DNA from: Flavobacteriales bacterium
GTDB taxonomy: Bacteria > Bacteroidota > Bacteroidia > Flavobacteriales_F > PHOS-HE28
Reading direction: 5' to 3'
Length of the DNA stretch: 64,000 nucleotides
NCBI GenBank assembly: GCA_023382455.1
Contig: JAHDVX010000007.1
Span: forward strand, 1 to 64,000
The position numbers were made by a program, and so were the translations under genes. Position 1 is the stretch's first letter; each line of letters begins with the position of its first letter. This document shows positions 3,153 through 61,840 of this stretch, piece by piece. The notes beneath the pieces are model-generated. The model ran no database searches. It worked only from the letters and a program-made list of their open reading frames with translations, and was not told the origin of the DNA.

Positions 3153-3183
3153 TTTGCTGTTTGGTGATGGGTCCCTTGCTCCA

Positions 3184-3210
3184 TCAGCGGTCTCCCGAAG
3201 GGGACCCTGA
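3184..3210. repeat. REP-like palindrome, same family as copies inside the GT9 gene
   Basis: TCAGCGGTCTCCCGAAGGGGACCCTGA, near-perfect dyad. Confidence 0.7.
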
Positions 3211-3225
3211 TGATACTGTATCTGT

Positions 3226-48283: not shown

Positions 48284-48370
48284 GTTGGCAGTTGTCGGTT
48301 GTCAGTTGTCGGTTGTCAGTTGTCGGGGCCGAAGCGCAGCCGTACAACGGACAACTATCAACTAACAACC
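48284..48370. repeat. heptad array with inverted arms (locus D)
   Basis: gttggca gttgtcg gttgtca gttgtcg gttgtca gttgtcg ... tacaacg gacaact atcaact aacaacc. Confidence 0.88.
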
Positions 48371-56319: not shown

Positions 56320-56730
56320 TCACCGCCTCCGCTCCATCCACCCTTGCAGGATGATGGTGGCGCTGATGCGGTCCAGGGTGCCCTTGTCGCGGCGCGCCAT
56401 TCGGCCGATGCCGCTCTGGAGCATGGCCTGGTGGGCCATGGTGCTGGTGAAGCGCTCATCGGTGGTCTCCACCCAGTGCTTGGGGAATTGCGCCTTCAAG
56501 GCCGCGACGAACCGGGCCACGTGCGGCGTGGCGTCCGTGGGCGTGCCGTCCAGGTTGCAGGGCATCCCCACCACGAAGCCTTCCACCGCCTCCTTGCCCG
56601 TGTAGCGCTTCAGGTAGTCCATCAGCTCCGCGGTGGGCACGGTGGCCAGCGCGGAGGCGATGATGCGCGCGGGGTCCGTCACCGCAAGGCCCGTGCGCTT
56701 GAGGCCGAAATCGATGGCGAGGATGCGCAT
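56320..56730 (-). CDS. ruvX: Holliday junction resolvase-like RuvX/YqgF
   Basis: MRILAIDFGLKRTGLAVTDP ... DERFTSTMAHQAM. Confidence 0.92.
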   Translation of the reverse strand: MRILAIDFGLKRTGLAVTDPARIIASALATVPTAELMDYLKRYTGKEAVEGFVVGMPCNLDGTPTDATPHVARFVAALKAQFPKHWVETTDERFTSTMAHQAMLQSGIGRMARRDKGTLDRISATIILQGWMERRR

Positions 56731-56809
56731 GGTGCAAAGATGCCTCCTGATGGTGCATCGACCCAATGGGTCGACTGTACAAGGGCGGGGTGGCATCTTT
56801 GCACCATGC
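56727..56809. promoter_or_regulatory. divergent ruvX/dapD promoter region with 18-bp perfect inverted repeat and central dyad
   Basis: gcatggtgcaaagatgcc / ggcatctttgcaccatgc; TCGACCCAATGGGTCGA at 56758-56774. Confidence 0.6.
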
Positions 56810-57648
56810 ACGAATTGATCGAAAAGGCCTGGGCGGACCGCAGCCGCCTGGCGGACCCCGAAACGGTGCAGGCCATTGAGGGCGTGGTGGAGAAGCTGGA
56901 CCGCGGCGAGCTGCGCGTGGCCTCGCCCTCGGCTGTCAGGCCGAGCGCAGCCGAGGCCACAGCCGGGGGCGACGCCTGGAGAGTGAACGAATGGGTGAAG
57001 AAGGCCGTGCTGCTCTACTTCCCCATCCGCAAGATGGTGACGCTGGAGGCCGGGCCGCTGGAGTTCCACGACAAGATCCCCCTGAAGCGCCGCTATGCCG
57101 AACTGGGCGTGCGCGTGGTGCCGCATGCCATCGCGCGCCACGGCAGCTACATCGCGCCGGGCGTGATCCTGATGCCGAGCTACGTGAACATCGGTGCCTA
57201 CGTGGACGAGGGCACCATGGTGGACACCTGGGCGACCGTGGGCAGCTGTGCGCAGATCGGCAAGCACGTACACCTCAGCGGCGGCGTGGGCATCGGCGGC
57301 GTGCTGGAGCCCGTTCAGGCGGCACCGGTGATCATTGAGGACGGGGCCTTCATCGGCAGCCGTGCCATCGTGGTGGAGGGCGTGCACGTAGGCAAGGAGG
57401 CCGTGCTGGGCGCCAATGTGGTGCTCACCGCCAGTACCCGCATCATCGACGTCACCGGGCCGGAACCGAAGGAGATGCGCGGCCACGTGCCGCCCCGGTC
57501 GGTGGTGATCCCCGGCACCATGCCCAAGCGGTTTCCCGCCGGGGAGTACGGTGTACCCTGCGCACTCATCATCGGCCAGCGAAAGGAGAGCACCGACCGC
57601 AAGACCAGCCTGAATGAGGCGCTGAGGGAGCACAATGTGGCGGTATGA
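56806..57648 (+). CDS. dapD: 2,3,4,5-tetrahydropyridine-2,6-dicarboxylate N-succinyltransferase
   Basis: VNEWVKKAVLLYFPIRKM, hexapeptide repeats ... SYVNIGAYVDEGTMVDTWATVGSCAQIGKHVHLSGGVGIGGVLEP. Confidence 0.95.
   Translation: MHELIEKAWADRSRLADPETVQAIEGVVEKLDRGELRVASPSAVRPSAAEATAGGDAWRVNEWVKKAVLLYFPIRKMVTLEAGPLEFHDKIPLKRRYAELGVRVVPHAIARHGSYIAPGVILMPSYVNIGAYVDEGTMVDTWATVGSCAQIGKHVHLSGGVGIGGVLEPVQAAPVIIEDGAFIGSRAIVVEGVHVGKEAVLGANVVLTASTRIIDVTGPEPKEMRGHVPPRSVVIPGTMPKRFPAGEYGVPCALIIGQRKESTDRKTSLNEALREHNVAV
56919..56958. repeat. REP-like palindrome in frame within dapD
   Basis: ggcctcgccctcggctgtcaggccgagcgcagccgaggcc. Confidence 0.65.
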
Positions 57649-57651
57649 TGG

Positions 57652-57750
57652 GTTGTCAGTTCTTAGATGTCAGTTCTTAGTTGTCAGTTCTTAGTTGTCA
57701 GTTGATAGCCCGCCAGAACGACCGGCAACCAACAACAAGCAACAACGCCT
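57652..57750. repeat. heptad array (locus H)
   Basis: gttgtca gttctta gatgtca gttctta gttgtca gttctta gttgtca gttgata ... cggcaac caacaac aagcaac. Confidence 0.88.
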
Positions 57751-58975
57751 GAAACAATTCCTCGTCATACAGACCGCCTTCCTGGGTGATGCCGTGCTGG
57801 CTTCGGCGCTGCTGGAGAAGCTGCATGCCTTCTTCCCCGATGCGGCCATCGACCTGGTGGTGCGCAAGGGCAACGACGGCCTCTACGCCGGGCATCCCTT
57901 CCTGCGCAAGCTGTACGTGTGGGATAAGCGCAATGGCAAGAACCGCGACCTCTTCCGCTTGGTGAAGGAATTCCGCGAACAGCGCTATGACCATGTGATC
58001 AATGCCCAGCGATTCTTCAGCACCGGCCTGATGACCGTGCTTTCCGGCGGCAAGGAGACGATCGGCTACGACAAGAATCCGCTGAGCTTCCTGTTCTCCC
58101 GCAAGGTGAAGCACGCCATCCCCGACTGGAAAGCGCTTCAGGGATCCTATTCCTCAGGGTCCCCTTCGGGAGACCCTGAGGGGGCCCTGCAGGCCTCCTT
58201 CAAGCACGAGGTGGACCGCCTGAACGACCTGATCGAACACCTGACCGATGGCGAACGCCCCATGCCGAGGCTTTATCCCACCGCCGAGGCCCGGGAGAAG
58301 GTCCGCATCACATTGGACTCACGCCTGATAGCTACAGCTTCCTCAGGGCCTCTCGAAGAGGACCCTGCAGGGAGCGCCCCCCATCCTCAGGGTCCGCCCT
58401 CAGCTCCCTCAGGGTCTCCCAAAGGGGACCCTGTAGGGAGCGCCCATCCTCAGGGTCCGCTACGCGAGACCCTGAGGGAGGATGGGGGCTACGTCACCAT
58501 CGCTCCGGCATCCGTATGGTTCACCAAGCAATGGCCGCCGGAAAAGTGGATCGAGCTGATCAAGCTGGTGCCCGCCGACCGCCGCGTGCTGCTGATCGGA
58601 GGGCCGGGCGATGCGGCGCTATGCGAACGGATCGCCCAAAAGGCAGGCCGCGGCGAGGTGTTGGCCGGCAAGCTGTCCCTGTTGGAGACCGCCGCGCTGA
58701 TGGAAGACGCCGCCATGAACTACGTGAACGACAGCGGACCGCTGCACATCACCAGCGCCATGAATGCACCGGTTACGGCCGTGTTCTGCAGCACCGTGCC
58801 CGCCTTCGGCTTCGGGCCGCTAAGGCCCAATGGCCGTGTGGTGCAGTACAAAGGCCCGCTCTACTGCCGCCCTTGCGGGCTGCACGGCCACAAGACCTGC
58901 CCGGAAGGGCATTTCAAGTGTGCTGTCGACATTGGAGTAAGGGAAGTGCTGGGGGGCCAAGACCTTCGTTCGTAG
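57695..58975 (+). CDS. family 9 glycosyltransferase (ADP-heptose:LPS heptosyltransferase-like)
   Basis: FLVIQTAFLGDAVLASALLEKLHAFFP; VNDSGPLHITSAMNAPVTAVF; non-ATG start. Confidence 0.85.
   Translation: MSVDSPPERPATNNKQQRLKQFLVIQTAFLGDAVLASALLEKLHAFFPDAAIDLVVRKGNDGLYAGHPFLRKLYVWDKRNGKNRDLFRLVKEFREQRYDHVINAQRFFSTGLMTVLSGGKETIGYDKNPLSFLFSRKVKHAIPDWKALQGSYSSGSPSGDPEGALQASFKHEVDRLNDLIEHLTDGERPMPRLYPTAEAREKVRITLDSRLIATASSGPLEEDPAGSAPHPQGPPSAPSGSPKGDPVGSAHPQGPLRETLREDGGYVTIAPASVWFTKQWPPEKWIELIKLVPADRRVLLIGGPGDAALCERIAQKAGRGEVLAGKLSLLETAALMEDAAMNYVNDSGPLHITSAMNAPVTAVFCSTVPAFGFGPLRPNGRVVQYKGPLYCRPCGLHGHKTCPEGHFKCAVDIGVREVLGGQDLRS
58152..58181. repeat. REP-like palindrome in frame within GT9 gene (copy 1)
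   Basis: cctcagggtc...gaccctgagg. Confidence 0.85.
58341..58484. repeat. three further REP-like palindromes in frame within GT9 gene
   Basis: cctcagggcctctcgaagaggaccctgcagg; ccctcagggtctcccaaaggggaccctgtaggg; catcctcagggtccgctacgcgagaccctgagggaggatg. Confidence 0.85.
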
Positions 58976-60083: not shown

Positions 60084-60355
60084 ACTCCCAAAGATAGCCC
60101 AACAACGTGTGCCCCTTCCCCGATCGGTCGTGTCCAACCTGACGCCAACCTACTGAGGCGGCATGAAAGAAACGGACGGTTCAAGGGTGGGAGAGCGCGA
60201 AAGGAGCGGCCCTGGCACTACCTCGAACCTTTGCACCATATCGTTCTTCCACCGAATGGAAAATGAGAACGGATCTTCCTCACCGGCTCAGTAATGGGTC
60301 CGCCGCGCGCGCACCTCTCACAGTCGCCCTATTTTCGCGGCCCCGAAAAACACGC

Positions 60356-61840
60356 ATGTCCCCCGCACACGCATACACCGTGGATCCCAAGCGCTTGGAA
60401 GGCGTGACGGACCAACCGCTGTTCAAAGCGGCGGGCCGGGTAGCGGACCGCATGGGCGTGCGCGCCTTCGCCATCGGCGGCCATGTGCGCGACCTGCTGC
60501 TGGGCCGCCCCTGCAAGGACATCGACATCGTGTGCGAGGGCGACGGCATTGCCTTTGCCGAGGCCGTGGCCAAGGAACTTGACGCCGGGCCCGTGCACGT
60601 CTTCAAGAACTTCGGGACGGCCATGTTCACCCTTCGGCAGGCTCAGGGTGACATGGAGCAGATCGAGTTCGTGGGCGCCCGCAAGGAGAGCTACAGCCGC
60701 AACAGCCGCAAGCCGGAGGTGGCGCCCGGCACCATCAGCGACGACCAGCAACGGCGCGACTTCACCATCAATGCGCTGGCCATCTCGCTGAATGCCCCCG
60801 ATCGAGGCCAGCTGGTGGACCCATTCAATGGTGTCGAAGACCTGCGCAAGGGCATCATCCGCACGCCGCTGGGCCCCGACGTCACCTTCAGCGACGATCC
60901 GCTGCGCATGCTGCGCGCCATCCGCTTCGCCACGCAGCTGGGTTTCTTCATCGACGTGCCCACCTTCGAGGCCATCCAGCGCAATGCCGAACGGCTCGAC
61001 ATCATCAGCGCCGAACGCATCCACACCGAGCTGAACAAGATCATCCTGGCGCCCGTGCCCAGCGTCGGCTTCAAGCTGCTGCTGAACAGCGGGCTGCTGG
61101 TGCGCTTCTTCCCCGAGATGGTGGACCTGCTGGGCGCCGAGGAAAAGGCCGGCATCGGCCACAAGGACAATTTTTACCACACCATCCAGGTGCTGGACAA
61201 CGTGGCCGCCCACAGCGACGACCTGTGGCTGCGCTGGGCCGCCGTGCTGCACGACATCGCCAAGCCGCGCACCAAGCGCTTCGAGCCCGGCCGCGGCTGG
61301 ACCTTCCACGGCCACGAGGACAAGGGCGCCCGCATGGTGCCGGGCATCTTCCGCCGCCTGAAGCTGCCGCTGGACGAAAAGATGAAATTCGTGCAGAAGC
61401 TGGTGGCCCTGCACCTGCGGCCCATCGCCCTCACCAAGGAGGAGGTGACCGACAGCGCCGTGCGCCGCCTGCTCTTCGATGCCGGCGAGGCCATCGACGC
61501 GCTGATGATCCTGTGCAAGGCCGACATCACCAGCAAGAACGAGGCGAAGAAGAAGCGTTACCTGGCCAACTACGCGGTGGTGATGCAGAAGCTGCGCGAG
61601 GTGGAAGAGAAAGACCGCGTGCGCAATTTCCAGCCGCCCATCACCGGCGAGGACATCATGCGGGCCTTCAACATCACGCCCTGCAAGGCCATCGGCGACA
61701 TCAAGACGGTGATCAAGGACGCCATCCTCGACGGCAAGATCCACAACGACCGCCAACAGGCCTGGCAGTTGATGGTGGAGGAAGGCCGGAAGCTGGGGCT
61801 GACGCTGTCACCGGGGATGGAGGGGCCGACGAAGGCGTGA
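60356..61840 (+). CDS. cca: CCA tRNA nucleotidyltransferase with HD domain
   Basis: [48 protein letters not shown]. Confidence 0.92.
60627..60651. repeat. REP-like palindrome in frame within cca
   Basis: tcaccct-tcggcaggctc-agggtga encoding FTLRQAQGD. Confidence 0.7.

Follow-up and report, generated by a model that had tools for sequence, protein, structure and literature searches.

REP-like palindromes read in frame in a heptosyltransferase-like gene of a Flavobacteriales genus, and their probable spread by a RAYT

The window, that is, the whole 64,000-nucleotide stretch of DNA analysed here, contains a heptosyltransferase-like (GT9) gene in which four imperfect 30-bp palindromes and one half copy are read in frame. 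We consider it very likely (probability about 0.85) that these palindromes are genus-private REP-like elements, spread by a REP-associated tyrosine transposase (RAYT) and carried as passengers in the loops of genes. To judge from close relatives, the genus that hosts them comprises uncultured Flavobacteriales represented by metagenome assemblies; the genome of the window (G000) is an assembly of 51 contigs. The relevant features of the window are:

57749..58975, + strand: GT9 (heptosyltransferase-like) gene, core reading of 408 aa
58152..58181, + strand: REP copy 1 (CCTCAGGGTC-CCCTTCGGGA-GACCCTGAGG), in frame as SSGSPSGDPEG, in the N-domain loop before HEVDRLN
58335..58445, + strand: 45-nt unit present twice as a direct repeat (58335-58379 and 58401-58445, 87% identical)
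58341..58370, - strand: REP copy 2, degenerate, in frame as SSGPLEEDPAG, in the interdomain linker
58385..58396, + strand: half REP (CCTCAGGGTCCG), what is left of the first unit's right-hand REP
58407..58436, - strand: REP copy 3, in frame as PSGSPKGDPVG, with a GCTC foot tag at 58403-58406
58448..58477, + strand: REP copy 4, in frame as PQGPLRETLRE, with a GAG foot tag at 58478-58480
3182..3212, - strand: degenerate copy of the same family (CATCAGCGGTC-TCCCGAAGGG-GACCCTGATG), with a GCTC tag at 3178-3181, apparently extragenic

The first-pass annotation of this DNA had reported four in-frame palindromes in a heptosyltransferase-like reading frame. All four were recovered with the frame open, and the two low-complexity peptides that it quoted are exact. 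It had also described copies lying near one another with a direct repeat, which we refine to the 45-nt unit, whose second instance lies 66 nt (22 codons) downstream of the first, plus the half copy. Copies 3 and 4 form a REPIN-like inverted pair with the foot tags pointing outward, and the unit preceding them, made of copy 2 and the half copy, is its relative at the 66-nt offset. Hairpin folding with an interrupted stem is predicted for 4/4 copies. In copies 1 and 4 the 10-bp stem (CCTCAGGGTC/GACCCTGAGG) leads into an inner stem of 3 bp that has a single bulged base and ends in a triloop. The hairpins of copies 2 and 3 are degenerate versions of this one, the imperfections being a GGGCC arm in copy 2 and CCCTGCAGG and CCCTGTAGG feet in copies 2 and 3. 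The core 9-mer CTCAGGGTC occurs six times in the window against 0.62 expected, a number reached in 0/100 shuffles. Many matches to this 9-mer in the genome of the window were rejected as elements, being ordinary coding sequence. The spacers of the window also hold tandem 14-nt units (GTTGTCAGTTCTTA and relatives), at 57652-57707 directly upstream of the GT9 gene and at 48291-48332.

The GT9 reading frame runs uninterrupted across all palindromes to position 58975 on the forward strand; it may begin at the TTG at 57695 or with a codon near 57749. A profile search matched it to PF01075 (E=3.6e-25). The nearest solved folds that Foldseek found for its AlphaFold model are GT9 3tov and heptosyltransferase II 1psw (E about 1e-18), and the model has the GT-B fold. 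The protein did not reach NCBIfam equivalog cut-offs, and profile and model identify it at the level of family and fold. The model, a check proposed in the first-pass annotation, comprises two domains with a mean pLDDT of 83 and most core blocks above 90. The inserts fall in low-confidence stretches between the well-folded domains, with a pLDDT of about 57-60 in insert 1 (residues 131-150) and below 50 in residues 201-237; judging from the model, they would be exposed at the surface. The conserved residues are retained, and dN/dS of the core is about 0.2-0.25 against relatives. Since the core is confidently modelled and has this dN/dS, the gene looks functional and the inserts are probably disordered passenger peptides.

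The other proposed check was an alignment of orthologs. An alignment of about 30 GT9 orthologs defined three insert sites in the genus: one follows GNDGLF, one precedes HEVDRLN and one lies in the interdomain linker ahead of YITIAPASVWFTKQWP. The insert peptides are absent from most species and from the outgroup; orthologs carrying the same peptides family-wide were not found, and most orthologs within the genus do not have them. They are also absent from dozens of GT9s across Bacteroidota, which are mostly about 320-335 aa long. The inserts present at these sites differ between genus members, and the two sites occupied in the window are both free of palindromes in the nearest sister (G017). 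The GT9 of G032 (locus L009) contains a 69-nt tandem array within the gene, giving repeats of PQGPEAETLREQYEAETLRKEE. Synteny with G003 and G022 along the 136-kb contig revealed no credible gene other than GT9 with an insert of this family.

Palindromes of other kinds are found in two nearby genes. A dapD-like ORF at 56344-57648 (tetrahydrodipicolinate succinyltransferase-like) has an in-frame insert, PSAVRPSAAEAT, at 56926-56961, which comes from a different imperfect palindrome (GGCCTCG...CGAGGCC); at this spot G022 has no insert and G003 has another odd peptide, GIPGQARNDG. A CCA tRNA nucleotidyltransferase-like ORF at 60263-61840 contains a palindrome of another family, TCACCCTTCGGCAGGCTCAGGGTGA, at about 60627-60651, in frame as TLRQAQGD, and its protein is about 5 aa longer than in G003 and G022.

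We searched for the family as the pattern AGGGTC-N10-GACCCT, with the backwards pattern as control. The genome of the window has 23 exact-core copies and relatives have 36, 22 and 20; degenerate copies are incompletely counted, and the copy set is complete for only some genomes. The pattern is present in 28/35 genomes of the genus. Outside the genus, 23 outgroup genomes gave only two single matches, and the backwards control was near zero. Of 79 distinct middles, 61% have all three pairs of a 3-bp inner stem, compared with 10% in shuffles made with the same orientation choice as the real data (maximum 22% in 2000). This stem is formed by many compensating pairs, such as CGC/GCG, CCG/CGG, CAC/GTG, CTC/GAG and TCT/AGA, and the outer arm pairs covary as well (GC/TA). 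A foot tag, GAGC, follows one foot only, with GCTC(C) as the tag-strand consensus. Among neighbouring copies of mixed orientation, nine pairs have outward and two have inward tags; neighbours of the same orientation are commoner (20, mostly in tandem arrays). In the genome of the window, inverted REP pairs with a constant 59-60 nt offset were seen at L163/L187 (contig C13, about 89 kb), L159 (start of contig C10), L189 and L190. These pairs, some of them at contig ends, may be REPIN-like units and a source of assembly breakage.

As 20-40 bp imperfect hairpin palindromes dispersed over the genome and predominantly extragenic, the copies conform to the description of REPs. Their number is modest, at most 23-36 exact-core copies, compared with a REP copy number that is often >100 per genome (PMC2817692). 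The foot is neither GTAG/GTGG nor CGTC, and the family is therefore filed as REP-like only, outside the GTAG and CGTC superfamilies. Searches of Rfam gave only chance-level matches below gathering scores, and the part of the literature that we covered did not describe the family.

The RAYT candidates first found in the genome of the window and in some relatives lay near mostly unrelated palindromes. The right clade became evident only once the AGGGTC-N10-GACCCT pattern had been defined. Its representative and our query, a protein from contig C288 of G031, matches the NCBIfam model REP_Tyr_transpos with E=2.2e-18, below the curated cut-off, and carries an NHVH motif; this subfamily is present in 11 genomes of the genus. 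In a quickly built tree with 51 RAYT-like proteins, and with palindromes sought within 700 bp of the genes, 14/15 members of the clade are flanked by the palindrome, usually within 20-130 bp, and the sole exception starts 44 bp from a contig end. Near the other RAYT-like genes the palindrome was never found (0/36). A pair of RAYTs with 99% support (L048 and L200) has repeats with AAGGTC arms instead of AGGGTC. Genus genomes with the RAYT have a median of nine copies against one in those without it (Mann-Whitney p=0.002, uncorrected for kinship).

Palindromes thus flank the RAYT gene in relatives, as in REPtrons. The assembly of the window's genome, some contigs of which end in these palindromes, has no member of the clade, although a gap in the assembly may hide one; the best match is 29% identical and belongs to other RAYT clades. 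Because the cognate transposase is absent from this assembly, its copies are probably relics. Ten near-identical tandem REPs lie immediately downstream of the RAYT gene on contig C237 of G032 (L217). Other RAYTs of the genus (L051, L053, L056 and L057) have their own distinct hairpins nearby, for example CGCACGCGAGCG... and GCGTAGCC...GGCTACGC, and several REPtron families may coexist in the genus.

A codon-model test was applied to both flanks of 126 clusters of copies. At the strict threshold, 82 have neither flank coding, 34 have one and 10 have both, with a few more at a looser threshold. All ten clusters with both flanks coding are in frame, without frameshifts or stops; the GT9 copies of the window have one flank just under the strict threshold and are in frame by inspection. 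Genes with intragenic copies encode GT9, Mfd, an alpha-2-macroglobulin-like (A2M-like) protein, an XdhC-like protein, kynureninase and an MmeI-like methyltransferase. For GT9, Mfd, the A2M-like and XdhC-like proteins and the MmeI-like methyltransferase, different species have inserts in the same loops. Mfd has same-position inserts in three species and the A2M-like protein in four, with sisters lacking them; parsimony requires 3 and 4 changes, respectively. Such a pattern reflects recurrent gain or recurrent loss, and we favour gain on sequence grounds, since the insert sequences differ. Two MmeI-like restriction-modification proteins (L131 in G032 and L178 in G028) have two or three in-frame REPs just before the methyltransferase motif DYILGNPPF.

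With tandem copies counted singly, 26 of 38 credible in-gene copies read GSxxxDP and 12 read QGP..TLRE, 6 of the latter in one tandem array. None uses the third frame, which holds TGA where the arm ends CTGAGG. A third-frame match with two mismatches in the A2M-like gene of G012 proved to be a chance match elsewhere in the gene. Copies at L083 lie upstream of a DnaE-like start and were rejected as intragenic, as were those at L084 and L100, where the ORFs are implausible.

The family shares much with the REP/RAYT (TnpA-REP) REPtrons of E. coli, Pseudomonas and Stenotrophomonas (PMC2817692, PMC8266576, PMC3116915). Both have bulged imperfect hairpins of about 30 bp, a one-sided foot tag, inverted REPIN-like pairs, mostly extragenic copies and a flanked Y1/HUH RAYT gene. 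The present family differs in its GCTC/CTCC-like tag in place of GT[AG]G, its lower copy number, its recurrent insertions in conserved genes, its host genus of uncultured Flavobacteriales and the lack of a cognate RAYT in the assembly of the window's genome. TnpA-REP of E. coli recognises the bulge and the foot tag (PMC8266576), and by analogy the conserved bulge and tag seen here fit recognition by a RAYT. In Bacteroidetes, the hairpins flanking TnpA-Y1 subclass 2.6 are atypical and lack GT[AG]G (PMC6006769). By description, the present system resembles this subclass in its occurrence in Bacteroidota, a length of about 180-190 aa, NHVH and YIH-x-NP motifs and atypical hairpins that lack GT[AG]G; the RAYT read here shows no evident WQ motif, which is listed for the subclass.

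Intragenic REPs were reported in 2013 from housekeeping genes of Opitutus terrae, Thauera, Xanthomonas and Rickettsia conorii, with REP clusters within ORFs that code for as many as 82 aa; two Xanthomonas species carry different REPs at about one recB position (PMC3733652). Those REPs belong to the GTAG or CGTC families, whereas the present family belongs to neither and, within a single genus, has inserted in orthologous loops of two or more species in at least five gene families. What we describe is a new REP/RAYT family and not a new kind of element, as intragenic REPs were already known.

We suggest that the RAYT most likely recognises the bulged hairpin and the one-sided foot tag on single-stranded DNA and thereby spreads copies. 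Insertion would occur mostly between genes; within genes, the survivors would be frame-keeping copies in tolerant loops or linkers, and the GT9 enzyme would bear its inserts as neutral, disordered peptides rich in Gly, Ser, Pro and Asp. Points that count against this explanation are the RAYT-less assembly of the window's genome, the atypical foot tag and a copy number that is modest for a REP. The inserts could instead be selected functional additions that tune linkers, act as regulatory RNA hairpins or form protein-interaction loops, as might be indicated by the finding that several species have them in the same protein loops and that most are read in a single frame, giving GSxxxDP peptides. 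We regard this as unlikely: a small number of tolerant loops and the loss of stop-bearing frames account for both patterns, sequence, length and copy number vary between species, the closest sisters have no inserts, and unrelated palindromes occupy similar sites, as in DapD. That the repeats arose and spread by local tandem duplication or recombination alone, without a transposase, seems more doubtful still. The 45-nt unit in GT9, the 69-nt array in the G032 GT9 and the ten-copy array by the G032 RAYT speak for such events, but the copies are dispersed over the genome, lie in unrelated genes and are specifically tied to one RAYT clade, so local duplication would play a secondary part at best.

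The first-pass annotation had likened the palindromes to Rickettsia palindromic elements (RPEs). The likeness holds in so far as both are read in frame in diverse proteins, housekeeping proteins included, and RPE-4 and RPE-6, read as CGTC REPs, have themselves been called intragenic REPs (PMC3733652). It does not extend to membership or special kinship, and we hold it highly improbable that the elements are true RPEs or a horizontally acquired relative. They are a 30-bp, genus-specific REP-like family, mostly outside genes; among the searched genomes the family is limited to one Flavobacteriales genus with its own RAYT clade, apart from single matches, whereas RPEs belong to another phylum and RPE-1 is a longer palindrome (PMC3733652). 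The two are set apart here by description. We give equally little credit to an assembly artefact or a pseudogene, in which the GT9 ORF would be chimeric or decayed and open by chance. The draft assembly does have 51 contigs, with family repeats at some contig ends, but no stop interrupts the frame anywhere in the gene, and the core is under purifying selection with its conserved residues in place. Judged from the assemblies, a collapsed or misassembled repeat in GT9 is unlikely because its copies differ from one another and inserts of this kind occur in independent assemblies.

Taken as RAYT-spread passengers, the palindromes offer a clean natural experiment, with one transposase clade, matching repeats whose arm changes are matched, parallel in-frame loop insertions and sisters with empty sites. 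With this system it can be studied how conserved proteins acquire new disordered segments and what is recognised by a RAYT in the absence of a GTAG tag, and annotations of such genomes will contain many odd low-complexity peptides. We further speculate, while thinking it rather unlikely, that the RAYT/REP system inserts preferentially and repeatedly, in frame, into a few loops of conserved proteins throughout the genus (GT9, Mfd, the A2M-like protein, XdhC and the MmeI-like methyltransferase). If so, it would serve to diversify the loops and linkers of housekeeping proteins and would not be purely an extragenic repeat.
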